A program made the translations under genes and the position numbers. The notes below the pieces were generated by a model. That model was not told where the DNA came from. It searched no databases and saw only the letters and a list, made by a program, of their open reading frames with translations. From Arenicola marina (taxonomy: Eukaryota > Annelida > Polychaeta > Arenicolidae): a DNA stretch of 64,000 nucleotides. The stretch covers positions 34,444,035-34,508,034 of the forward strand of contig OZ025256.1 of NCBI GenBank assembly GCA_964019135.1. The letters run 5' to 3'. Positions 37,857 through 64,000 of this stretch are shown in pieces; the stretch's first letter is position 1; the number at the start of each line of letters is the position of its first letter.

Positions 37857-38036
37857 GTAAGATGTGTTGCCTTCTACAAGCGCATGGTCGGCATGGACAA
37901 ATTCAAAAAAATTACCAGTAACCTTTTGTGATGAAGTTGGGATAATTGCCATCTCACCTAATATTTGTAAATTATTCAAAGCTTCCTTGTAGACATTGTT
38001 GATAAAACTGTTGATAAGTGTTTCATTTATTTTCAG
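37857..38036 (+). other. Intron between visible exons 2 and 3
   Basis: This 180-bp intron opens with GTAAGA and closes with gtttcatttattttcag, a strong polypyrimidine tract and acceptor. Confidence 0.65.
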
Positions 38037-39436
38037 ATATATTACAATTTGATAGAGACTCCGTAGTAGGTGACTATGAGTTTCTGCCCCTGCCAACACC
38101 AGACAGTAGCTCTGGGTACGGCTCTGTGTCCACCGCTTCCCTGCTCTCGAAGGTCAGTGATCTTCAGGATGACCCCATGGCGTCTCCCTTCTGGTCCATC
38201 CGGAGTCGCGATCAGCTGGTTCGGCTTGCTGGCCAGGATCCAGATTCTCGCTCGATGTCCACGACGCAAGACGTCAAAACCCTTAGGCACTTTGTACCCA
38301 AGAGGCTTCCGACGGAACGCCTGGTTTCGGGGGTTCTGCGGCAGTTACAGCGCATCTACGCGTGGACGTCGCCTGTCAGTGCACGGAGCAGCTTCAATTC
38401 GTGTCGGGGTGAGCCAACACACCGGCAGTTAGTTCCAGATTGGGGCATCAGTAGCAGCACTCCGAACCTAAACAACACGCACTCCATTCCAGAAGAAGCA
38501 GAGAAACCACCTCCAGATGTGCTGTTCACCCAAAGGACAACACCCGGGAGATGTCCTCATGAATACGGAGACGTAACCACGCGGAGAGACGTTCCCAAGC
38601 CCACGAAGACTTCGCCCGCTGTGCTGCCCAAGCAGTCACGTGGTCCTGGTGTGGGTGGCGCCCCCGCCCGGCCACGCAGGGAGTCGCCGAGAAGCCACGG
38701 AACCAAGACATTTACGAATATCGATGATCTGAAAACCCTCTATCCGCCGATTAAAAGCAATCGGGACCCCCATCCAACACCTACAGCAGACCCCGGCCAC
38801 TGTGTAACGGTCTCCCAGAAACACCGGCCTCACCCGCATGAAGGTGTAACAGCCGCACTTGACCTTATGAAGGGCAACTTAATGAATCGTGTTGTACCAG
38901 GTCAACCCACCAGTCCTGAGACGTCAAAGATCGCCATCGACTCACCAGAGGGAACAAAGGTCCATGAGGCTGATGGCTCAGAAGAAAGAACTGATCGACA
39001 GAAGGAAAGAAATGTCATAGATGATGGTTCAGAAGGACAATATTTTCACTGGACAGATGGTCGTCAGATGGCTGGTGACGAAGGATGCGCAGTGTCCGGG
39101 CCTGACTGCACGCTGAGTGGGGCAGCTGGTCAGCCATGTCCTCGAGATGGGACACGGTTTGAGTCAGCCAGTGGCCAAGACGACAGCCTGGCCTCGCCGC
39201 GCTTTGCCAGCGTGCGGGACGTGCCTGGGGACATGAGCGCTCTGTCCATAGCCGCGGTGGGGCGGTGCCTGGCCCTGCTCGGACTCTCCCGGCACTGCCG
39301 CGCCTTCCAAGACAAGATGGTCGATGGCGAGCTGCTCACAAACATGGACGCCACCATGTTGAAGGCGGAATTCCACATGACAGCATTTGACGCATATAAA
39401 TTGGTGATGTTTGTGGGAGGCTGGCGACCAAAGTGA
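38037..39436 (+). CDS. Terminal exon: GAREM/Serrano-like adaptor with C-terminal SAM domain
   Basis: This 1,400-nt last exon follows acceptor tttatttcag-type sequence ending at 38,036 and stops with TGA at 39,434-39,436. It encodes about 466 residues: YILQFDRDSVVGDYEFLPLP, a Ser-rich SSSGYGSVS, a long low-complexity polar and Pro-rich linker, and a C-terminal SAM domain in the last 66 or so residues (from about 39,236). SAM marks are LSIAAVGRCLALLGL, DKMVDGELLTNMD, KAEFHMTAFDAYKLV and the ending GWRPK. As I recall them, vertebrate GAREM proteins and fly Serrano are CABIT+SAM adaptors in growth-factor/MAPK or polarity signalling, with a similar GWRPK end. The three visible exons give about 588 residues in one frame. 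I saw no YxN Grb2-binding motif in them, so a Grb2 role is not supported here. It could be another SAM adaptor. Confidence 0.6.
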
Positions 39437-39800: not shown

Positions 39801-40077
39801 TCACAACTAATCCAATGTTGAGCCATGGTACAGCGCTGTCATCGTATATTCCATGAAGTCGCAAGCTTTAAGTTGGTTGTCTAAATAGTTTATGCACTGC
39901 GTAATAAGTTTGGGAAATTGTTTGAGCTCGTGGCACAACACACATGTGGCACAAAAAGTATATGAATAATACACTTGTATACTTGGGAGGAGGCGATTCT
40001 GGGAAAGGTTATTATATTGCTTGGCATTTATTTTTGTAATGCTATGTCCTAGTTTATACCATATAACGCTATGGTTA
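39801..40077. other. Unique intergenic sequence
   Basis: About 280 bp without a gene. A reverse frame that runs from the TRIM element into this stretch (39,807-40,148) is spurious. Confidence 0.5.
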
Positions 40078-40218
40078 TATAACGGCGGGGGCCGGATTGA
40101 TCCCCAACGGGAGTCGAACTCACGATCTCCCGATCTCAAGTCAACCACTCTACCTCTTCGGCTAAAGGGGTGATCCCTCTAGCCGAGGCTAGTAGGAATG
40201 GTTTGACTCACTGCTACA
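40078..40218 (-). repeat. 3' terminal repeat (minus orientation) of the TRIM-like element
   Basis: 141 bp, the downstream repeat in the minus orientation. It has the same length as its partner and contains the tRNA-like segment at 40,100-40,171. Confidence 0.6.
40100..40171 (-). promoter_or_regulatory. tRNA-like Pol III promoter in downstream terminal repeat
   Basis: This 72-nt tRNA-shaped stretch has a partial acceptor pairing (ACCCC with GGGG), A box TAGCCGAAGAGG, a seven-base anticodon loop CTTGAGA (UGA in the anticodon position), and B box AGTTCGACTCC at tRNA spacing. The anticodon stem has four pairs, but the D stem is poor. It is not a functional tRNA gene; it is a tRNA-derived promoter module. 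Confidence 0.55.
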
Positions 40219-40220
40219 CA

Positions 40221-40236
40221 TTCTCCCCCTCTTTTC
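40221..40236 (-). other. Candidate polypurine tract
   Basis: On the minus strand GAAAAGAGGGGGAGAA is an unbroken 16-nt purine run, two bases upstream of the TGTAGC start of the downstream repeat. This is the expected place for a plus-strand primer in an LTR element. Confidence 0.55.
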
Positions 40237-40242
40237 GAGAGG

Positions 40243-40312
40243 GCTGTCCTCAGACCGCTGTCCTCAGACCGCTGTCCTCAGACCGCTGTCATCAGACCGC
40301 TGTCATCAGACC
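40243..40312. repeat. 14-bp tandem repeat, about 5 copies
   Basis: The unit cagaccgctgtcct (later copies cat in place of cct) recurs at 40,251, 40,265, 40,279, 40,293 and 40,307. It lies inside the internal part of the TRIM-like element. Confidence 0.85.
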
Positions 40313-40347
40313 AGGACTACTCAGTCTCAGAACCACCGTGGGTTCTA

Positions 40348-40363
40348 CCTGTGTCGGGCTCCA
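40348..40363 (-). other. Candidate primer-binding site
   Basis: On the minus strand TGGAGCCCGACACAGG starts one base after the upstream repeat ends. It opens with TGG, as sites pairing with a tRNA CCA end do, and resembles Lys-tRNA primer sites with a few differences. Confidence 0.45.
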
Positions 40364-40364
40364 T

Positions 40365-40505
40365 TGTAACGGCGGGGGCCGGTTTGGTCCCCAGCGGGAG
40401 TCGAATTCACGATATCCCGATCTCAAGTCAACCACTCTACCTCTTCGGCTAAAGGGGTGATCCCTCTAGCCGAGGCTAGTAGGAATGGCTTGACTCACCG
40501 CTACA
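40365..40505 (-). repeat. 5' terminal repeat (minus orientation) of the TRIM-like element
   Basis: 141 bp, starting TGTAGC and ending GTTACA on the minus strand. It contains the tRNA-like segment at 40,387-40,458. Confidence 0.6.
40387..40458 (-). promoter_or_regulatory. tRNA-like Pol III promoter in upstream terminal repeat
   Basis: This is the counterpart of 40,100-40,171 in the other repeat. A box TAGCCGAAGAGG and B box AATTCGACTCC (GTTCGANTCC type) are 32 nt apart, exactly tRNA spacing (positions 8-19 and 52-62). Confidence 0.55.
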
Positions 40506-41000
40506 GTTATAAGTCTACAGTATACGGTAGCCTTATCAGGATGTACTATTATAGGGATGGGACTATATGCTTAAAAGTGTTATCCGGCTTCTGTATTTGA
40601 GAGTGCAATTCGTCACTTTCTTAAAGTACTTCCAACCATTACCATGGACGTGTGAAGTCACTTCAACAACTATTATCCACTGAATATACAATGAACTAAT
40701 GAAGATATGAGAACAGAATAGTATAATATCGATTAATGGAGGCCAAATATATGTATAACCGCAGGTTAAAATCACAAAGTTATGTAGTGTTTTGCTCGTT
40801 TGCTCGTTTGCTGGCCAGATGGCTCTGCCACCGAGACGGTCCCACGGCGACAACCCGCTTTCAGTCTGCCTGGCGCGTCGTACGTTATGCGTCTCCATAC
40901 CACAGCCCGTAGGAGCAAGCACATGCCGAACGCGTCGTGTGCCGTAATGTGACAAGTGACAAAATAGGGGCTGTATGCAATGGAAGAAAAATATTTGTAC
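40506..41000. other. Unique intergenic sequence
   Basis: About 500 bp of mostly AT-rich sequence with a short tgctcgtt repeat near 40,795-40,810. It may be the tail of the tRNA-derived element that follows. I see no gene. Confidence 0.4.
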
Positions 41001-41078
41001 CCCAGTCGCGATTTAAACGCACAAGCCTACGAATGTAACATTGAAAGTCGGTCGCCCAACCGACTTCGCTACCCTGGC
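41001..41078 (-). mobile_element. tRNA-derived SINE head (fragment)
   Basis: On the minus strand there is a perfect A box TAGCGAAGTCGG (41,060-41,071) and a weak B box CGTTTAAATCG (41,009-41,019), 40 nt apart. The loop-like CTTTCAA would put UUC in the anticodon position. The stems pair poorly, so this is a tRNA-derived repeat, not a tRNA gene. Its non-tRNA body probably continues toward 40,800; I could not find its end. Confidence 0.45.
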
Positions 41079-41531
41079 TACATACGGGCTCCTGGCGTTT
41101 GAATGCCCCTGCTTCTAAACTCACAAGCCCCATGCGGAACACCAAGCAATGTATTGGACTTTCATAAAAAGTTAGAAATATAGATGCTGAGAACTTTGTT
41201 TTAACTTTTCTGTCTGTTAATCAGGACCAGTCAACGGGCGCGTATCCAGAATTTCGTGAATGTTGAAGTGTGTGCGGTGCATATGGCTGGAGGGGGGGGG
41301 GGCGGGCGCATATTCTGATCTTTAAAAAATGTTAGGCGGGTTAACCAAGGGGGGGGGGGACTAGGGCCTACTAGATACATTGCTGAGTTTTTCGCGAAAA
41401 AGCCACCCACCTCCTTTTTTTAACCTCCAAAGTCTGCCCGAAAAGTGGGGTCCAATTTCAATGGTCCTTGTCATTTGTTGGCGCTGCGATAAAGACTGCT
41501 CTTAGAGGTACTCGCTACTTTACACTTACAT
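41079..41531. other. G-tract-rich spacer before minisatellite B
   Basis: No gene. Poly-G runs lie at about 41,290-41,301 and 41,350-41,359, followed by a C-rich lead-in to the array. Confidence 0.5.
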
Positions 41532-44500
41532 CCCTCCTACCCAACCCTCGCTACCCCTCCCCACCCCTCGCCACTCATCGTCACTATGCTATCCCTCCCC
41601 ACCCCTCGCCACTCATCGTCACTATGCTATCCCTCCCCACCCCTCGCCACTCATCGTCACTATGCTATCCCTCCCCACCCCTCGCCACTCATCGTCACTA
41701 TGCTATCCCTCCCCACCCCTCGCCACTCATCGTCACTATGCTACCCCTCCCCACCCCTCGCTACTCATCGTCACTATGCTATCCCTCCCCACCCCTCGCC
41801 ACTCATCGTCACTATGCTACCCCTCCCCACCCCTCGCTACTCATCGTCACTATGCTACCCCTCCCCACCCCTCGCTACTCATCGTCACTATGCTATCCCT
41901 CCCCACCCCTCGCCACTCATCGTCACTATGCTATCCCTCCCCACCCCTCGCTACTCATCGTCACTATGCTACCCCTCCCCACCCCTCGCCACTCATCGTC
42001 ACTATGCTATCCCTCCCCACCCCTCGCTACTCATCGTCACTATGCTATCCCTCCCCACCCCTCGCCACTCATCGTCACTATGCTATCCCTCCCCACCCCT
42101 CGCTACTCATCGTCACTATGCTATCCCTCCCCACCCCTCGCCACTCATCGTCACTATGCTATCCCTCCCCACCCCTCGCTACTCATCGTCACTATGCTAT
42201 CCCTCCCCACCCCTCGCCACTCATCGTCACTATGCTATCCCTCCCCACCCCTCGCTACTCATCGTCACTATGCTATCCCTCCCCACCCCTCGCCACTCAT
42301 CGTCACTATGCTATCCCTCCCCACCCCTCGCTACTCATCGTCACTATGCTATCCCTCCCCACCCCTCGCCACTCATCGTCACTATGCTATCCCTCCCCAC
42401 CCCTCGCCACTCATCGTCACTATGCTATCCCTCCCCACCCCTCGCCACTCATCGTCACTATGCTATCCCTCCCCACCCCTCGCCACTCATCGTCACTATG
42501 CTATCCCTCCCCACCCCTCGCCACTCATCGTCACTATGCTATCCCTCCCCACCCCTCGCCACTCATCGTCACTATGCTATCCCTCCCCACCCCTCGCCAC
42601 TCATCGTCACTATGCTATCCCTCCCCACCCCTCGCTACTCATCGTCACTATGCTATCCCTCCCCACCCCTCGCCACTCATCGTCACTATGCTACCCCTCC
42701 CCACCCCTCGCCACTCATCGTCACTATGCTACCCCTCCCCACCCCTCGCCACTCATCGTCACTATGCTATCCCTCCCCACCCCTCGCCACTCATCGTCAC
42801 TATGCTATCCCTCCCCACCCCTCGCCACTCATCGTCACTATGCTACCCCTCCCCACCCCTCGCCACTCATCGTCACTATGCTATCCCTCCCCACCCCTCG
42901 CCACTCATCGTCACTATGCTATCCCTCCCCACCCCTCGCCACTCATCGTCACTATGCTATCCCTCCCCACCCCTCGCCACTCATCGTCACTATGCTATCC
43001 CTCCCCACCCCTCGCCACTCATCGTCACTATGCTATCCCTCCCCACCCCTCGCCACTCATCGTCACTATGCTATCCCTCCCCACCCCTCGCCACTCATCG
43101 TCACTATGCTATCCCTCCCCACCCCTCGCCACTCATCGTCACTATGCTACCCCTCCCCACCCCTCGCTACTCATCGTCACTATGCTACCCCTCCCCACCC
43201 CTCGCCACTCATCGTCACTATGCTACCCCTCCCCACCCCTCGCCACTCATCGTCACTATGCTATCCCTCCCCACCCCTCGCCACTCATCGTCACTATGCT
43301 ATCCCTCCCCACCCCTCGCCACTCATCGTCACTATGCTATCCCTCCCCACCCCTCGCTACTCATCGTCACTATGCTATCCCTCCCCACCCCTCGCTACTC
43401 ATCGTCACTATGCTACCCCTCCCCACCCCTCGCCACTCATCGTCACTATGCTACCCCTCCCCACCCCTCGCCACTCATCGTCACTATGCTATCCCTCCCC
43501 ACCCCTCGCCACTCATCGTCACTATGCTACCCCTCCCCACCCCTCGCCACTCATCGTCACTATGCTATCCCTCCCCACCCCTCGCTACTCATCGTCACTA
43601 TGCTATCCCTCCCCACCCCTCGCTACTCATCGTCACTATGCTACCCCTCCCCACCCCTCGCTACTCATCGTCACTATGCTATCCCTCCCCACCCCTCGCT
43701 ACTCATCGTCACTATGCTATCCCTCCCCACCCCTCGCCACTCATCGTCACTATGCTATCCCTCCCCACCCCTCGCCACTCATCGTCACTATGCTACCCCT
43801 CCCCACCCCTCGCCACTCATCGTCACTATGCTATCCCTCCCCACCCCTCGCCACTCATCGTCACTATGCTATCCCTCCCCACCCCTCGCCACTCATCGTC
43901 ACTATGCTATCCCTCCCCACCCCTCGCCACTCATCGTCACTATGCTATCCCTCCCCACCCCTCGCCACTCATCGTCACTATGCTATCCCTCCCCACCCCT
44001 CGCTACTCATCGTCACTATGCTATCCCTCCCCACCCCTCGCTACTCATCGTCACTATGCTATCCCTCCCCACCCCTCGCCACTCATCGTCACTATGCTAC
44101 CCCTCCCCACCCCTCGCCACTCATCGTCACTATGCTACCCCTCCCCACCCCTCGCCACTCATCGTCACTATGCTATCCCTCCCCACCCCTCGCCACTCAT
44201 CGTCACTATGCTATCCCTCCCCACCCCTCGCCACTCATCGTCACTATGCTACCCCTCCCCACCCCTCGCTACTCATCGTCACTATGCTACCCCTCCCCAC
44301 CCCTCGCTACTCATCGTCACTATGCTATCCCTCCCCACCCCTCGCCACTCATCGTCACTATGCTATCCCTCCCCACCCCTCGCCACTCATCGTCACTATG
44401 CTATCCCTCCCCACCCCTCGCCACTCATCGTCACTATGCTATCCCTCCCCACCCCTCGCCACTCATCGTCACTATGCTACCCCTCCCCACCCCTCGCCAC

Positions 44501-47500
44501 TCATCGTCACTATGCTACCCCTCCCCACCCCTCGCTACTCATCGTCACTATGCTATCCCTCCCCACCCCTCGCCACTCATCGTCACTATGCTACCCCTCC
44601 CCACCCCTCGCTACTCATCGTCACTATGCTATCCCTCCCCACCCCTCGCTACTCATCGTCACTATGCTACCCCTCCCCACCCCTCGCTACTCATCGTCAC
44701 TATGCTACCCCTCCCCACCCCTCGCTACTCATCGTCACTATGCTATCCCTCCCCACCCCTCGCCACTCATCGTCACTATGCTATCCCTCCCCACCCCTCG
44801 CCACTCATCGTCACTATGCTACCCCTCCCCACCCCTCGCTACTCATCGTCACTATGCTATCCCTCCCCACCCCTCGCCACTCATCGTCACTATGCTATCC
44901 CTCCCCACCCCTCGCTACTCATCGTCACTATGCTATCCCTCCCCACCCCTCGCCACTCATCGTCACTATGCTATCCCTCCCCACCCCTCGCCAATCATCG
45001 TCACTATGCTACCCCTCCCCACCCCTCGCTACTCATCGTCACTATGCTATCCCTCCCCACCCCTCGCCACTCATCGTCACTATGCTATCCCTCCCCACCC
45101 CTCGCTACTCATCGTCACTATGCTATCCCTCCCCACCCCTCGCCACTCATCGTCACTATGCTATCCCTCCCCACCCCTCGCCACTCATCGTCACTATGCT
45201 ATCCCTCCCCACCCCTCGCCACTCATCGTCACTATGCTACCCCTCCCCACCCCTCGCTACTCATCGTCACTATGCTACCCCTCCCCACCCCTCGCTACTC
45301 ATCGTCACTATGCTACCCCTCCCCACCCCTCGCCACTCATCGTCACTATGCTACCCCTCCCCACCCCTCGCCACTCATCGTCACTATGCTATCCCTCCCC
45401 ACCCCTCGCCACTCATCGTCACTATGCTACCCCTCCCCACCCCTCGCCACTCATCGTCACTATGCTATCCCTCCCCACCCCTCGCTACTCATCGTCACTA
45501 TGCTATCCCTCCCCACCCCTCGCCACTCATCGTCACTATGCTATCCCTCCCCACCCCTCGCCACTCATCGTCACTATGCTATCCCTCCCCACCCCTCGCC
45601 ACTCATCGTCACTATGCTATCCCTCCCCACCCCTCGCCACTCATCGTCACTATGCTATCCCTCCCCACCCCTCGCCACTCATCGTCACTATGCTATCCCT
45701 CCCCACCCCTCGCCACTCATCGTCACTATGCTACCCCTCCCCACCCCTCGCTACTCATCGTCACTATGCTACCCCTCCCCACCCCTCGCTACTCATCGTC
45801 ACTATGCTATCCCTCCCCACCCCTCGCCACTCATCGTCACTATGCTATCCCTCCCCACCCCTCGCTACTCATCGTCACTATGCTATCCCTCCCCACCCCT
45901 CGCTACTCATCGTCACTATGCTATCCCTCCCCACCCCTCGCCACTCATCGTCACTATGCTACCCCTCCCCACCCCTCGCCACTCATCGTCACTATGCTAT
46001 CCCTCCCCACCCCTCGCCACTCATCGTCACTATGCTATCCCTCCCCACCCCTCGCCACTCATCGTCACTATGCTATCCCTCCCCACCCCTCGCCACTCAT
46101 CGTCACTATGCTATCCCTCCCCACCCCTCGCCACTCATCGTCACTATGCTATCCCTCCCCACCCCTCGCCACTCATCGTCACTATGCTATCCCTCCCCAC
46201 CCCTCGCCACTCATCGTCACTATGCTATCCCTCCCCACCCCCTCGCCACTCATCGTCACTATGCTATCCCTCCCCACCCCTCGCCACTCATCGTCACTAT
46301 GCTATCCCTCCCCACCCCTCGCCAATCATCGTCACTATGCTATCCCTCCCCACCCCTCGCTACTCATCGTCACTATGCTATCCCTCCCCACCACTCGCCA
46401 CTCATCGTCACTATGCTATCCCTCCCCACCCCTCGCTACTCATCGTCACTATGCTATCCCTCCCCACCCCTCGCCACTCATCGTCACTATGCTACCCCTC
46501 CCCACCCCTCGCCACTCATCGTCACTATGCTATCCCTCCCCACCCCTCGCCACTCATCGTCACTATGCTATCCCTCCCCACCCCTCGCCACTCATCGTCA
46601 CTATGCTACCCCTCCCCACCCCTCGCTACTCATCGTCACTATGCTATCCCACCCCACCCCTCGCTACTCATCGTCACTATGCTATCCCTCCCCACCCCTC
46701 GCCACTCATCGTCACTATGCTATCCCTCCCCACCCCTCGCCACTCATCGTCACTATGCTATCCCTCCCCACCCCTCGCCACTCATCGTCACTATGCTATC
46801 CCTCCCCACCCCTCGCCACTCATCGTCACTATGCTATCCCTCCCCACCCCTCGCTACTCATCGTCACTATGCTATCCCTCCCCACCCCTCGCCACTCATC
46901 GTCACTATGCTACCCCTCCCCACCCCTCGCCACTCATCGTCACTATGCTATCCCTCCCCACCCCTCGCCACTCATCGTCACTATGCTATCCCTCCCCACC
47001 CCTCGCCACTCATCGTCACTATGCTATCCCTCCCCACCCCTCGCCACTCATCGTCACTATGCTATCCCTCCCCACCCCTCGCCACTCATCGTCACTATGC
47101 TATCCCTCCCCACCCCTCGCCACTCATCGTCACTATGCTATCCCTCCCCACCCCTCGCCACTCATCGTCACTATGCTACCCCTCCCCACCCTCGCTACTC
47201 ATCGTCACTATGCTATCCCTCCCCACCCCTCGCTACTCATCGTCACTATGCTATCCCTCCCCACCCCTCGCCACTCATCGTCACTATGCTACCCCTCCCC
47301 ACCCCTCGCTACTCATCGTCACTATGCTATCCCTCCCCACCCCTCGCCACTCATCGTCACTATGCTACCCCTCCCCACCCCTCGCTACTCATCGTCACTA
47401 TGCTACCCCTCCCCACCCCTCGCTACTCATCGTCACTATGCTATCCCTCCCCACCCCTCGCCACTCATCGTCACTATGCTATCCCTCCCCACCCCTCGCC

Positions 47501-49593
47501 ACTCATCGTCACTATGCTATCCCTCCCCACCCCTCGCCACTCATCGTCACTATGCTACCCCTCCCCACCCCTCGCTACTCATCGTCACTATGCTACCCCT
47601 CCCCACCCCTCGCTACTCATCGTCACTATGCTATCCCTCCCCACCCCTCGCCACTCATCGTCACTATGCTATCCCTCCCCACCCCTCGCTACTCATCGTC
47701 ACTATGCTATCCCTCCCCACCCCTCGCCACTCATCGTCACTATGCTACCCCTCCCCACCCCTCGCTACTCATCGTCACTATGCTATCCCTCCCCACCCCT
47801 CGCCACTCATCGTCACTATGCTACCCCTCCCCACCCCTCGCTACTCATCGTCACTATGCTACCCCTCCCCACCCCTCGCTACTCATCGTCACTATGCTAT
47901 CCCTCCCCACCCCTCGCCACTCATCGTCACTATGCTATCCCTCCCCACCCCTCGCCACTCATCGTCACTATGCTATCCCTCCCCACCCCTCGCCACTCAT
48001 CGTCACTATGCTACCCCTCCCCACCCCTCGCTACTCATCGTCACTATGCTACCCCTCCCCACCCCTCGCTACTCATCGTCACTATGCTATCCCTCCCCAC
48101 CCCTCGCCACTCATCGTCACTATGCTATCCCTCCCCACCCCTCGCCACTCATCGTCACTATGCTACCCCTCCCCACCCCTCGCTACTCATCGTCACTATG
48201 CTACCCCTCCCCACCCCTCGCTACTCATCGTCACTATGCTATCCCTCCCCACCCCTCGCCACTCATCGTCACTATGCTATCCCTCCCCACCCCTCGCCAC
48301 TCATCGTCACTATGCTACCCCTCCCCACCCCTCGCCACTCATCGTCACTATGCTATCCCTCCCCACCCCTCGCTACTCATCGTCACTATGCTACCCCTCC
48401 CCACCCCTCGCTACTCATCGTCACTATGCTATCCCTCCCCACCCCTCGCCACTCATCGTCACTATGCTATCCCTCCCCACCCCTCGCCACTCATCGTCAC
48501 TATGCTACCCCTCCCCACCCCTCGCTACTCATCGTCACTATGCTACCCCTCCCCACCCCTCGCCACTCATCGTCACTATGCTATCCCTCCCCACCCCTCG
48601 CCACTCATCGTCACTATGCTATCCCTCCCCACCCCTCGCCACTCATCGTCACTATGCTACCCCTCCCCACCCCTCGCTACTCATCGTCACTATGCTATCC
48701 CTCCCCACCCCTCGCCACTCATCGTCACTATGCTATCCCTCCCCACCCCTCGCCACTCATCGTCACTATGCTATCCCTCCCCACCCCTCGCCACTCATCG
48801 TCACTATGCTATCCCTCCCCACCCCTCGCCACTCATCGTCACTATGCTATCCCTCCCCACCCCTCGCCACTCATCGTCACTATGCTATCCCTCCCCACCC
48901 CTCGCTACTCATCGTCACTATGCTACCCCTCCCCACCCCTCGCCACTCATCGTCACTATGCTATCCCTCCCCACCCCTCGCTACTCATCGTCACTATGCT
49001 ATCCCTCCCCACCCCTCGCCACTCATCGTCACTATGCTATCCCTCCCCACCCCTCGCCACTCATCGTCACTATGCTACCCCTCCCCACCCCTCGCTACTC
49101 ATCGTCACTATGCTATCCCTCCCCACCCCTCGCCACTCATCGTCACTATGCTATCCCTCCCCACCCCTCGCCACTCATCGTCACTATGCTATCCCTCCCC
49201 ACCCCTCGCCACTCATCGTCACTATGCTATCCCTCCCCACCCCTCGCCACTCATCGTCACTATGCTATCCCTCCCCACCCCTCGCCACTCATCGTCACTA
49301 TGCTATCCCTCCCCACCCCTCGCTACTCATCGTCACTATGCTACCCCTCCCCACCCCTCGCCACTCATCGTCACTATGCTATCCCTCCCCACCCCTCGCT
49401 ACTCATCGTCACTATGCTATCCCTCCCCACCCCTCGCCACTCATCGTCACTATGCTATCCCTCCCCACCCCTCGCCACTCATCGTCACTATGCTATCCCT
49501 CCCCACCCCTCGCTACTCATCGTCACTATGCTACCCCTCCCCACCCCTCGCTACTCATCGTCACTATGCTACCCCTCCCCACCCCTCGCTACT
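41532..49593. repeat. Minisatellite B: 38-bp pyrimidine-rich unit, about 212 copies
   Basis: Each 38-bp unit is ctatgctatccctcccc followed by acccctcgccactcatcgtca. Two positions carry nearly all the variation: gcta(t or c)ccct and ctcgc(c or t)actc, giving four common unit types in irregular order. I saw only two length changes: an extra C near 46,238 and one missing C near 47,190. A few private changes exist, for example ccaatcatcg near 44,992 and 46,322. The + strand unit has no stop in any frame and 38 is 2 mod 3, so three overlapping frames of about 2,700 codons run through it; they are not genes. The minus strand has GGGGTGGGGAGGG in every copy, a likely quadruplex former. The end is abrupt at cgctactc before ccgcgg. 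Confidence 0.97.
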
Positions 49594-50352
49594 CCGCGGA
49601 CAAAACATGAAAGGACCTCCCGACTTCCCCACCCCGCAGCCACCCCTTAAAATGAAATTCGTAACTTCTTGTTAATACATCACTTCTGTACCTTGTAATA
49701 TTTGTTTGGATATCACAGACACATCCAATCGTCCAAGAAGTGAGGATACATTAGCGAGGGTCTTGCGGGTTTAATATCCAAATGTCTTTTCATATAAGTG
49801 ATACTCGGGCCAAATAATACTGCCCCCACCCCCCACCCAACCCTGAACCCCCATAACCTCTTGTCGGCAATTATCGGGCATGCAAGTGAATCTCGTTTCA
49901 TGTGTGCGATACCTCACGAGATCAGATTTTGGTGACAACGGAACCAGGAAAACTGCGCGGTGAGCGAGGCGAGAAAAGGGTGGGTCCATTTTAGACCTGT
50001 ATGCAACTTAAATAAGAACCTATTAACTATCTAGTGATAATATATTGGTGAAAGACACTTTAAACTTGTATTTTTCCGTATCAATAACTGCTGTCAGTAA
50101 ACTTGGCGCACTAGAGCCCGCTTAATACCCAATATTTTAGCTGGCCTGACAGTGTTGCCGACGGCCGAATTACAGATGACAAGCCAAACAAACCAGAAGC
50201 GGAAATGGGGAATCGGCTATTGTTTTCGACAGATCGATTCATATTGTTCAAAGCATGTAATTGATGAACATATATCCAATGTTTGTTAGCATCATACTAC
50301 TGAAGCCTATGGATGATTTTTTATGACCAGGTATGATTGAGCCACTTGAGCT
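49594..50352. other. Intergenic sequence
   Basis: No supported gene. There is a C-rich patch at about 49,822-49,845; the rest is AT-rich. Confidence 0.5.
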
Positions 50353-57663: not shown

Positions 57664-58306
57664 GGGGACGCCCATTTGCTGTGGCGGTACGTAAGGGGTA
57701 TGAACAGCCATGTGCTGTGGGCGGTACGTAAGGGGTATGGATGGCCATGTGCTGTGGGCGGTACGTAAGGGGTATGGACGGCCATGTACTGTGGGCGGTA
57801 CGTAAGGGGTATGGATGGCCATGTGCTGTGGGCGGTACGTAAGGGGTATGGGCGGCCATGTGCTTTGGGCGGTACGTAAGCGGTATGGACGGCCATGTGC
57901 TGTGGGCGGTACGTAAGGGGTATGGACGGTCATGTGTTGTGGGCGGTACGTAAGGGGTATGGACGGCCATGTGCTGTGGGCGGTACGTAAGCGGTATGGA
58001 CGGCCATGTGCTGTGGGCGGTACGTAAGGGGTATGGACGGCCATGTGCTGTGGGCGGTACGTAGGCGGTATGGACGGCCATGTGCTGTGGGCGGTACGTA
58101 AGCGGTATGGACGGTCATGTGTTGTGGGCGGTACGTAAGGGGTATGGACGGCCATGTGCTGTGGGCGGTACGTAAGCGGTATGGACGGCCATGTGCTGTG
58201 GGCGGTACGTGAGGGGTATTGACGGCCATGTGCTGTGGGCGGTACGTAAGGGGTATGGACGGCCATGTGCTGTGGGCGGTACGTAAGGGGTATGGACGGC
58301 CATGTT
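57664..58306. repeat. Minisatellite C: 37-bp unit, about 17 copies
   Basis: The unit is ggccatgtgctgtggg, then cggtacgtaaggggtatggac, with palindromic TACGTA in each copy. Variants are agcggtat for aggggtat and gttgtggg for gctgtggg. The minus strand has no stop in any frame, producing overlapping reverse frames of 99-206 codons that are not genes. It starts about 50 bp after the assembly gap. Confidence 0.95.
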
Positions 58307-59639: not shown

Positions 59640-61198
59640 CGGACACCACAGCCGTCAGCCCTTGAGGCCGTGACACCACAGCCGTCAGCCCTTGAGGCCG
59701 GGACACCACAGCCGTCAGCCCCTGAGGCCGGGACACCACAGCCGTCAGCCCTTGAGGCCGGGACACCACAGCCGTCAGCCCTTGAGGCCGGGACACCACA
59801 GCCGTCAGCCCTTGAGGCCCTGACACCACAGCCGTCAGCCCTTGAGGCCGGGACACCACAGCCGTCAGCCCTTGAGGCCGTGACACCACAGCCGTCAGCC
59901 CTTGAGGCCGTGACACCACAGCCGTCAGCCCTTGAGGCCGGGACACCACAGCCGTCAGCCCTTGAGGCCGTGACACCACAGCCGTCAGCCCTTGAGGCCG
60001 GGACACCACAGCCGTCAGCCCTTGAGGCCGTGACACCACAGCCGTCAGCCCTTGAGGCCCTGACACCACAGCCGTCAGCCCTTGAGGCCGGGACACCACA
60101 GCCGTCAGCCCTTGAGGCCGTGACACCACAGCCGTCAGCCCTTGAGGCCGGGACACCACAGCCGTCAGCCCTTGAGGCCGTGACACCACAGCCGTCAGCC
60201 CTTGAGGCCGGGACACCACAGCCGTCAGCCCTTGAGGCCGGGACACCACAGCCGTCAGCCCTTGAGGCCCTGACACCACAGCCGTCAGCCCTTGAGGCCG
60301 TGACACCACAGCCGTCAGCCCTTGAGGCCGGGACACCACAGCCGTCAGCCCTTGAGGCCGTGACACCACAGCCGTCAGCCCTTGAGGCCGGGACACCACA
60401 GCCGTCAGCCCCTGAGGCCGGGACACCACAGCCGTCAGCCCTTGAGGCCGTGACACCACAGCCGTCAGCCCTTGAGGCCGGGACACCACAGCCGTCAGCC
60501 CTTGAGGCCCTGACACCACAGCCGTCAGCCCTTGAGGCCGTGACACCACAGCCGTCAGCCCTTGAGGCCGGGACACCACAGCCGTCAGCCCTTGAGGCCG
60601 TGACACCACAGCCGTCAGCCCTTGAGGCCGGGACACCACAGCCGTCAGCCCTTGAGGCCGGGACACCACAGCCGTCAGCCCTTGAGGCCGTGACACCACA
60701 GCCGTCAGCCCTTGAGGCCGTGACACCACAGCCGTCAGCCCTTGAGGCCGTGACACCACAGCCGTCAGCCCTTGAGGCCGTGACACCACAGCCGTCAGCC
60801 CTTGAGGACACGACACCACAGCCGTCAGCCCTTGAGGCCGTGACACCACAGGCGTCAGCCCTTGAGGCCGTGACACCACAGCCGTCAGCCCTTGAGGCCG
60901 TGACACCACAGCCGTCAGCCCTTGAGGCCGTGACACCACAGCCGTCAGCCCTTGAGGCCGTGACACCACAGCCGTCAGCCCTTGAGGCCGTGACACCACA
61001 GTCGTCAGCCCTTGAGGCCGTGACACCACAGCCGTCAGCCCTTGAGGCCGTGACACCACAGCCGTCAGCCCTTGAGGCCGGGACACCACAGCCGTCAGCC
61101 CTTGAGGCCGTGATACCACAGCCGTCAGCCCTTGAGGCCGTGACACCACAGCCGTCAGCCCTTGAGGCCGTGACACCACAGCCGTCCGCCCCTGCGGT
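59640..61198. repeat. Minisatellite D: 30-bp unit, about 52 copies
   Basis: The unit is gacaccacagccgtcag, then cccttgaggccgt. The only frequent variation is at the junction, gccg-tgac, gccg-ggac or gccc-tgac. Because 30 is a multiple of 3 and the unit has no stop in several frames, both strands hold long frames: + strand 59,670-61,298 (repeating TPQPSALEAV/G/L) and two on the minus strand (557 and 534 codons, repeating ADGCGVTASR and QGLTAVVSRP). None has flanking domain sequence, a signal peptide or a splice context, so I treat them as artefacts. The right part (from about 60,720) uses almost only the t variant. Confidence 0.93.
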
Positions 61199-61559: not shown

Positions 61560-64000
61560 ACCTGGCATAGCGAGGTAGAGACAAGGATAGCCTGGGATAA
61601 CCAGATACAGACAAGGAGAGGCCTGGGATAACCAGATAGAGACAAGGATGGCCTGAGATAACCAGATACAGACAAGAAGAGGCCTGGGATAACAAGATAG
61701 AAACAAGGATAGCCTGGGATAACCAGATAGAGACAAGGACAGCCTGGGATAACCAGATAGAGGCAAGGATGGCCTGGGATAATCAGATAAAAACGAGAGG
61801 CCTGGGACAACCAGATACAGACAAGGATAGCCTGGGATAACCAGATACAGACAAGGATAGCCTGGGATAACCAGATACAGACAAGGATAGCCTGGGATAA
61901 CCAGATAGACTAGTATAGCCTGGGATGACCAGATAGAGACAAGGATAGCCTGGGATAACCAGATAGAGACAAGGATAGCCTGGGATAACCAGATAGACAC
62001 AAGGAGAAGCCTGGGATAACCATATGGAGACATGGAAAGACCTGGGACAACCAGATGCAGACAAGGATAGCCTGGGATAACCAGATAGAGACAAGGACAT
62101 CCTGGGATAACCGGATACAGACACGGATAGCCCGGGGTAACCAGATACAGACAGGAATAGCCTTCGATAACCGTATGGAGACAAGGGTAGCCTGGTAGAA
62201 CCAGATACAGACAAGAAGAGCCTGGGATAACCAGATAGAGACCATGATAGCCTGGGATAACCAGATAGAGGCAATATGGCCTGGGATAACCTGGTAGAGA
62301 CAAGGGTGGCCTGGCATAGCTAGATAGCGACAAAGAGAGGCCTGGGATAACCAGATAGAGACAATGATAGCCTGGGATAACCAGAGAGAGACAAGGAAGC
62401 CTGGGATAACCAGATAGAGAGAAAGAGATACCTGGGATAACCAGATAGAGACAAGGATAGCCTGGGATAACCAGATAGAGACAATGATAGCCTGCGATAA
62501 CCAGTTAGAGACACGGATGCCTGGGAAAACCAGATAGAGAGAAGGAGATACCTGGGATAACCAGATAGAGACGAGGATAGCTTGAGATTAGCAGATACAG
62601 ACAAGGGTAGCCTGGGATAACCAAATAGAGACAAGGATAGCCTGGGATAACCAAATAGAGACACGGATTGCCTTGGATAACTAGCCAGAGACAAGGTTGG
62701 CCTGGGATAACCAGATAGACACAAGGATAGCCTGGGATAACCAAATAGAGACACGGATAACCTGTGATAACCAACTGGAGAAACGGCTAGCCTGGGATAA
62801 CTAGATAGAGACAAGGGTGGCCTGGGATAACCAAATGGAGACACGGATAACCTGGGATAACCAGTTAGAGACAAGGATAGCCTGGGATAACCAAATAGAG
62901 ACGAGGATAACCTGGGATAACCAGTTAGAGACAAGGATAGCGTGGGATAACCAGATAGAGACAAGGGTGGCCTGGGATAACCAGATAGAGACACGGATAG
63001 CCTGGGATAACTAGATAGAGACAAGGGTGGCCTGGGATAACCAAATAGAGATACGGATAACCTGCGATAACCAGATAGAGACAATGGTGGCCAGGGATAA
63101 CCAGATAGAGACAAGGAGATACCTGGGATAACCAGATAGAGAGAAGGATAGCCTGGGATAACCAGATAGAGACAATGATGGCCTGATATAACCAGATACA
63201 AACAAGGATAGCCTGGGATAACCAGGTACAGACAAGGATAGCCTGGGATAACCAGATAGAGACAAGCATAGCCTGAGATAACCAGATACAAACAAGGATA
63301 GCCTGGGATAACCAGATACAGACAAGGATAGCCTGGGATAAGCAGATAGAAACAAGGATAGCCTCGGATAACCAGATAGATAAAAGGAGAGGCCTGGGAT
63401 AACCAGATAGAGACAAGGATAGATAGCCTGGGATAACCGTATGGAGACAAGGGTAGCCTGGGATAACCAGATAGAGACAAGGATGGCCTGGGATAACCAG
63501 ATAGAGAAAAGGACAGGCCTGGGATAATCAGTTAGAGACAAAGATGCCTAAGATAACCAGATAGAGAGAATGAGACACCTGGGATAACCAGAGAGAGACA
63601 AGGATAGCCTGGGATAATCAGATAGAGACAAGAAAAGACCTGGGATAACCAGATGCAGACAAGGATAGCCTGGTAGAACCAGATAGAGAAAAGGAGAGGC
63701 CTGGGATAACCAGATAGAGACAAGGATAGCCCGGGATAACCGTATGGAGACAAGGGTAGCCTGGTATAACCAGATGGAGACAAGGATGTCTGGGATAACC
63801 ATATAGAGAGAAGGAGACACCTGGGATGACCAGATCGAGACAAGGATCGGCTGGGATAAGCCGAAAGAGACGAGGATAGCCTGGGATAACCAGATAGAGA
63901 CGAGGATAGCCTGAGATACCAGATAGAGACAAGGGTAGCTTGGGATAACCAAATAGAGACACGGATTGCCTGGGATAACTAGATAGAGACGAGGCTGGCA
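61560..64000. repeat. Minisatellite E: 30-bp unit, about 81 copies, decayed
   Basis: The unit is caaggatagcctggg, then ataaccagatagaga, about 30 bp with many substitutions and small indels (unit lengths roughly 28-34). Subtypes ccaaatagagacacgg and ccgtatggagacaaggg recur in the same order (near 62,170, 63,437 and 63,740), so block duplication also acted here. Reverse frames of up to 386 codons (repeating LSGYPRLSLS, YLVIPGYPCL or SIWLSQAILV) arise from the stop-poor minus strand and are not genes. The array runs past the right edge. Confidence 0.93.

Follow-up and report, generated by a model that had tools for sequence, protein, structure and literature searches.

The window, a stretch of 64,000 nucleotides from the annelid Arenicola marina, carries a 428-bp non-coding LTR retrotransposon with tRNA-Ser-like sequence in its LTR, and we hold with high confidence that it is a TRIM of the Helenus type, copied by the steps proposed below. 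The family to which it belongs extends the range of Helenus to an annelid, and gives evidence, at the level of sequence, that reverse transcription of an animal Helenus was primed by a tRNA, and names that primer. An earlier note, made from the letters of the window, had proposed a non-coding, miniature element bounded by tRNA-like LTRs, and the genome bears this out in the structural order of all 42 two-LTR units, in duplications around whole inserts and in solo LTRs.

Structure of the element

The element spans 40078-40505 (428 bp), and all of its LTR-type features are read on the minus strand, in the order LTR (141), primer-binding site (PBS), 14-bp repeats, polypurine tract (PPT), LTR. Its features are as follows.

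40074..40077, no strand: target-site duplication GTTA, low side (TAAC in the minus orientation)
40078..40218, minus: 3' LTR, 141 bp, outer end decayed to TATA
40099..40171, minus: tRNA-like segment of the 3' LTR (RF00005, 17.2 bits, positions 1-71 of 71, below gathering)
40110-40120, minus: B box of the 3' LTR, from box scoring
40153-40164, minus: A box of the 3' LTR, from box scoring
40219..40220, minus: TG, the two bases separating the PPT from the 3' LTR
40221..40235, minus: polypurine tract AAAAGAGGGGGAGAA, then TG, then the 3' LTR
40238..40312, no strand: 14-bp tandem repeats of the internal region, differing in copy number among copies
40348..40363, minus: primer-binding site TGGAGCCCGACACAGG, one base (A) after the 5' LTR
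40365..40505, minus: 5' LTR, 141 bp, TGTAGC...GTTACA
40397-40407, minus: B box of the 5' LTR, from box scoring
40440-40451, minus: A box of the 5' LTR, from box scoring
40506..40509, no strand: target-site duplication GTTA, high side

Repeat detection returned direct repeats at 40080-40218 and 40367-40505 (139 nt, 95% identity, no gaps, 287 from start to start), which become 141 nt each when extended by inspection (40078-40218 and 40365-40505). The two gap-free 141-bp repeats 287 apart that had been described before are thus confirmed, as are a PBS one base inside one repeat (A, then TGGAGCCCGACACAGG) and a purine run two bases before the other (AAAAGAGGGGGAGAA and TG). Integrase end processing predicts two bases left between the PPT and the 3' LTR, which integrase removes. 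Of the flanking duplication, GTTA stands on both sides, and the longer gttata match is partly LTR sequence: the outer end of the window 3' LTR reads TATA instead of TACA. The internal region is 146 bp long, and no ORF of 140 aa or more is listed within the element.

Around the element, five tandem arrays of 30-38-bp units (1-36258, 41550-49594, 57666-58305, 59642-61191 and 61561-63994) fill about three quarters of the window, and long open frames in some of them look like translations of repeats, not genes. A 472-aa open frame with a putative SAM domain at its end lies on the plus strand at 38018-39436, about 640 bp before the element. Outside the element, 40988-41085 (minus strand) is on our own reading possibly a tRNA-like stretch, with no Rfam tRNA match there.

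Copies in the genome

The searched genome comprises 867 Mb in 762 contigs. Its single COX1 match is on C762, amid the order nad3-trnS(TCT)-nad2-cox1-trnN-cox2-trnD-[atp8]-trnY-trnG-cox3 under code 5, with tRNAs from ARAGORN and the genes apart from COX1 from our own reading of the translation. In agreement with the mitochondrial arrangement of annelids given in PMC2639372, atp8 is succeeded by cox3 with no atp6, trnN separates cox1 from cox2, and nad3 adjoins nad2. A query with the full element gave at least 52 matches (best 40 of 586 candidates scored) and a query with the LTR at least 49 (best 40 of 597 candidates scored). The 16-mer of the PBS occurs at 103 places with up to one mismatch, compared with 31 for a reversed control, and is exact at no fewer than 62 of the places listed. 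The stretches fetched merge to 52 loci, every one of which holds the element, whole or in part. The window element recurs across the genome, so its repeat structure is not due to chance.

The order LTR, PBS, internal region, PPT, LTR is kept in all 42 same-strand units that lie between two complete LTRs, with the PPT shifted by a few bases in one. Internal regions start exactly with ATGGAGCCCGACACAGGTA in 34 of these units (the other eight are variants, one being the 18-nt tRNA version discussed below) and finish exactly with GGAAAGAGGGGGGAATG in 28, the remaining 14 being variants. Their lengths mostly step by 14 nt (89, 103, 117, 131, 145 and 159).

Target-site duplications of exactly 4 bp flank 29 of the 46 inserts scored as two-ended, some of which are in fact truncated, and at least three of four positions match in 36; when flanks were re-dealt 5000 times, exact duplications averaged 2.4 and never exceeded 8. 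Truncation accounts for some of the 17 inserts that lack an exact duplication. Three solo LTRs have a 4-bp duplication, on contigs C11 (TATA, within an AT-repeat), C3 (AAAG) and C4 (TATC). Two of three 3-LTR arrays also have one; no exact duplication was seen at the third (C6) or at either 4-LTR array. The earlier note had asked for further copies, conserved order, 4-6 bp duplications and solo repeats in this genome, and each was found, with the proviso on the C11 solo repeat.

In a sample of 77 LTRs made up of the best matches to the window copy plus the PBS matches, and so biased towards similarity, the mean difference from the column majority was 1.4% and 20 LTRs were identical to the majority; first and last LTRs were identical in 6 of 23 pairs. 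A "fossil of moderate age" is an apt description of the window copy, which, with LTRs that differ by 5%, belongs to the most diverged ones, but not of the sampled family, which the 20 majority-type LTRs mark as young.

Two further observations concern individual loci. By our own reading, three copies carry hairpin-like inserts at one CCTGG site of the Helenus internal region (L062:1500-1740, L074:708-912 and L044:1141-1517); two of these are related, with oppositely oriented centres, and the third differs. The site is possibly a MITE hotspot. L075 and L076 (C11:12069000 and C11:12105800) are one Helenus insertion, with the same flanks and the duplication CTAA, and sit in a block that is present twice and contains repeated tRNA-Met genes, the closest of them some 160 nt from the insertion. 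Since insertion and flanks are the same in both copies of the block, its duplication probably came later than the insertion.

tRNA-like sequence in the LTR

The A and B boxes begin at nucleotides 55 and 99 of both LTRs, 44 nt apart as in tRNA, in agreement with the tRNA-spaced boxes first described in each repeat. Their combined score was matched by 7 of 3000 dinucleotide shuffles for the 3' LTR and by 43 of 3000 for the 5' LTR, and that of the best antisense boxes by 180 and 1076 of 3000. The Rfam tRNA model aligned over all 71 of its positions to the minus strand of the window 3' LTR, at 17.2 bits (gathering threshold 29) and E = 2.1 over 4227 families, or about 5e-4 for the tRNA model alone by division. 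No Rfam tRNA match up to E = 10 was found in the window 5' LTR. A copy of the majority type scored 14.3 bits (E = 2.9), likewise below gathering, and five whole loci gave no tRNA match at E = 1 or better. ARAGORN reported tRNA-Ser(TGA) within the LTRs of 3 of the 52 loci and no tRNA in the window. Other Rfam matches (Plastid-ycf2, Virus_CITE_3, mir-641 and others) were all below gathering and were taken as chance; Plastid-ycf2, whose score exceeded that of the tRNA model, is taken as the same tRNA-like signal on the other strand or as chance.

These matches bear on whether the element may instead be an ordinary Pol II-transcribed TRIM whose resemblance to tRNA is decayed or has no promoter role, a reading that we consider unlikely. 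It accords with an Rfam score under gathering and with boxes that are imperfect (7 of 9 scored positions for A, 8-9 of 10 for B): the window copies keep TAGCC, with AGG in place of YGG and AGTTC or AATTC in place of GGTTC. Nor are the boxes extra-conserved. Variability among sampled LTRs is 0.030 in the A box, 0.014 in the B box and 0.012 in the rest, so that box conservation failed as proof of promoter function, the A box varying above the rest of the LTR and the B box about equally. Against Pol II transcription stand the full-length alignment of one LTR to the tRNA model, the 44-nt spacing in both LTRs and the ARAGORN predictions. The scarcity of sense-strand TTTT (2 of the 42 units, compared with 7 on the antisense strand and 19 of 42 after shuffling) points the same way, although one shared ancestor explains it equally well and for that reason it proves little.

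The primer

The usual PBS matches tRNA-Lys(CTT) over 11 nt only. The T-arm pattern tried in the search for a tRNA that would match this PBS over its full length gave nothing at up to one mismatch. In L011 and L028, the LTR is followed by TGGAGCCCGACGTGGGGC in place of the usual PBS. This 18-mer is complementary to the final 15 nt of a tRNA plus CCA, and stops where position 58 begins; m1A58 is the usual stop. tRNA-Lys(CTT) genes end in GCCCCACGTCGGGCT. Genes with the primer-type 3' end cluster on C19, where GTGGGTTCGAGCCCCACGTCGGGC is exact at 7 of 37 places found with up to two mismatches, and ARAGORN identified tRNA-Lys(CTT) at two of the three C19 genes checked. Large tRNA-Lys-like clusters with recurring T-arm variants lie at C19:31674876-31738575 and 32582320-32672355.

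ACAA followed by the 18-mer occurs exactly at 12 places in the genome. In L085, L088, L089 and L091, the 18-mer replaces TGGAGCCCGACACAGGT and is succeeded by the normal AGAACCC, the internal region and the next LTR. L084 and L090 consist of a Helenus LTR, the 18-mer and unrelated DNA; L082, L083 and L092 are head-to-head fusions; and L086 and L087 have other sequence upstream. In L081 (C2:13819003), a Helenus LTR with the 18-nt tRNA copy is joined to inverted Helenus internal DNA from the PPT, which is another aberrant replication product. Because four copies carry the exact 18-nt tRNA complement, the primer is, as judged from sequence, tRNA-Lys(CTT), whose copy can enter the element and usually does not.

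Head-to-head fusions

Two 18-nt ends of this kind, paired over GCCC.ACGT.GGGC with G-G mismatches at positions 9 and 14, would give the 22-mer TGGAGCCC[G/C]ACGT[G/C]GGGCTCCA. A scan with up to two mismatches found 30 genome sites (each on both strands) and none for a reversed-pattern control. Thirteen have at most one mismatch, eight of them being exact; the 17 left out are nine that read TGGAGCCCGACGTGGGGCTCGG behind ATAA, which look like ordinary PBSs, plus eight others. A Helenus LTR forms one arm in 10 of the 13 fusions, with the following partners.

Partner X: L082, L083, L093, L094, L095
Partner U: L124, L125
Partner Y: L092
Partner V: L096
Partner Z: L097
Without Helenus: L123 (X on both sides), L121 (W on both sides), L122 (unclassified)

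X, U, V and Y are multi-copy LTRs, each found repeatedly in pairs spaced by about 6-9 kb. Gypsy-type RT is present in X and V, that of X being nearest to Ty3 chains. V and Y have the full 18-nt tRNA-Lys complement as their own PBS. An X copy on C18 matches in its PBS over TGGAG only, and among the regions after 20 X LTR ends none has the full 18-nt PBS: one (L119) has 14 nt of it, one (L111) TGGAG only and 18 neither. None of the 13 fusions is between two Helenus LTRs, though these seem more numerous than the partners.

Read from Helenus, the centre is of GACGTG type in five of the ten fusions (including L124 and L125, with one further change each) and of CACGTC type in the other five (including L096 and L097, again with one further change each). 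The two types imply that the mismatches were resolved both ways, and together. The Helenus arm is 67 nt long in L094, has 79% identity in L124 and is rearranged in L125 (95% in the last 41 nt). Flanks differ between the X fusions. The X arm of L083 has 95% identity to an ordinary X copy and, over 288 nt, 91% to the X arm of L082 and 94% to that of L095, and its Helenus arm has three differences from that of L092 and four each from those of L093 and L095; by these comparisons, in which the margins are small, there is no sign of one ancestral composite behind the X fusions.

We consider it somewhat more probable than the contrary that the fusions are fossil heterodimers, formed when reverse transcription of a Helenus RNA and of a helper Gypsy RNA took place within one particle and their dead-end strong-stop plus strands were joined. 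Ordinary recombination or microhomology end joining of chromosomal LTR and PBS sequences would also unite such arms, and to this we give roughly one chance in a handful or a little better. None of the four X composites with both ends readable has a target duplication, which means that normal integration did not put them where they are. Of the eight Helenus arms whose outer end can be read, only three (L083, L092 and L093) retain the additional TG that marks an unprocessed end. In L082 the X arm continues into X internal DNA (98% over 195 nt), so the X partner there was longer than strong-stop DNA, and one arm stops short of the LTR end in L123 (by 16 nt) and L121 (by about 28 nt). All of this suits recombination. 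However, the 18-nt tRNA copy, absent from the usual Helenus PBS, is present in the Helenus arms at the fusion; the identical 22-mer overlap is seen with five different partner sequences; and the predicted mismatch positions, 9 and 14, are the main variable ones and switch together.

The sequences of the fusions suggest fossils of dead-end plus-strand DNAs made together, which would indicate Gypsy helpers. The evidence bearing on a putative mobilisation by Gypsy elements is indirect, namely the tRNA-Lys primer in common, the fused ends with X, U, V, Y and Z and the Gypsy-type RT of X and V; the identity of the helpers is less sure than the traces of copying. If the heterodimer reading is true, no fewer than four LTR families (X, U, V and Y) would have helped Helenus here, of which V and Y share the tRNA-Lys(CTT) primer, and any genome that bears TRIMs could be read for such joints to name the helpers. 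Among the papers listed in searches of the literature, none on chromosomal head-to-head joints of strong-stop DNAs was found, and the passages on Ty1 and Ty3 replication in one account (PMC5371799) do not mention fused dead ends in chromosomes.

Proposed mechanism

Two tandem or nearby insertions of LINE-mobilised SINEs with tRNA heads, a reading that would fit a tRNA-like unit with A and B boxes and the occurrence of solo units, were rejected as highly improbable, given the PBS, the PPT and the TG..CA ends, the tRNA-Lys copy at the PBS, and duplications that surround whole inserts and not each unit, a single 4-bp duplication enclosing even the 3-LTR arrays on C17 (TAGG) and C4 (TATA).

As a Helenus-type TRIM, the element would be copied as follows. 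The 5' LTR would drive RNA synthesis, probably with Pol III acting through the tRNA-like boxes, and the RNA would enter the particles of Gypsy-type elements. Minus-strand DNA would be primed at the PBS by tRNA-Lys(CTT), as the four copies with its exact complement indicate. The PPT would prime plus-strand DNA that copies the LTR and up to 18 nt of the tRNA, the end product of which is seen at the junctions, and integrase would insert the DNA with the 4-bp duplications that are themselves observed. The tRNA copy would usually not be passed on, as in Ty1 and Ty3. Plus strands keeping the 18 nt would be dead ends, two of whose 3' ends could pair through the near-palindrome and fuse, and the 13 sites are taken as the record of this.

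Comparison with known systems

The earlier note knew of no described family of this kind; there is one, published as Helenus by Kojima (2024, PMC10886601), with animal members included. The sections of that paper drawn on here list Arthropoda, Brachiopoda, Chordata, Ctenophora, Mollusca and Nemertea as host phyla, so the annelid host is a difference. They describe a short non-coding LTR element that has a PBS, a PPT and a tRNA-like LTR, makes 4-bp duplications when the host is an animal, occurs also as tandem arrays and solo LTRs, and has tRNA-Lys among its primers, all of which resemble the family described here. A dependence on Gypsy is proposed there from shared PBSs. The window element, at 428 bp, fits the published size of less than about 1.3 kb without coding sequence. 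Most Helenus families have a box A with TRGCY and YGG and a box B with GGTTC (PMC10886601), whereas in the window copies YGG is missing from box A and box B has AGTTC or AATTC; the 11-nt match of the usual PBS to tRNA-Lys(CTT) and the internal array of 14-bp repeats are also differences. The family is assigned to Helenus by its anatomy and the published description. Among the papers listed in literature searches, the name Helenus was found in Kojima's 2024 paper only, and no annelid TRIM was found in titles or abstracts.

The same sections (PMC10886601) describe two other TRIMs with related promoters. Cassandra of plants is alike in having captured a Pol III-type promoter in its LTRs and in forming tandem arrays; its promoter is from 5S rRNA, not tRNA, and there is no indication of a helper. 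Ajax of nemerteans (421 or 434 bp) likewise has a small-RNA promoter in its LTRs, but this is 5S-derived, and Ajax has 5-bp duplications and a tRNA-Leu primer. How the dependence of TRIMs is maintained is stated there not to be known; on the question of what mobilises TRIMs, the fused tRNA-copied ends would be a genomic record pointing to particular Gypsy families.

In the passages on Ty1 and Ty3 cited above (PMC5371799), new elements usually do not inherit the tRNA copy in their PBS, and dead-end plus-strand strong-stop DNAs accumulate in Ty3 particles, as proposed here; Ty3 differs in copying 12 nt of tRNA, compared with up to 18 nt in A. marina. Relative to published Helenus, what is new is the annelid host and the evidence on replication.
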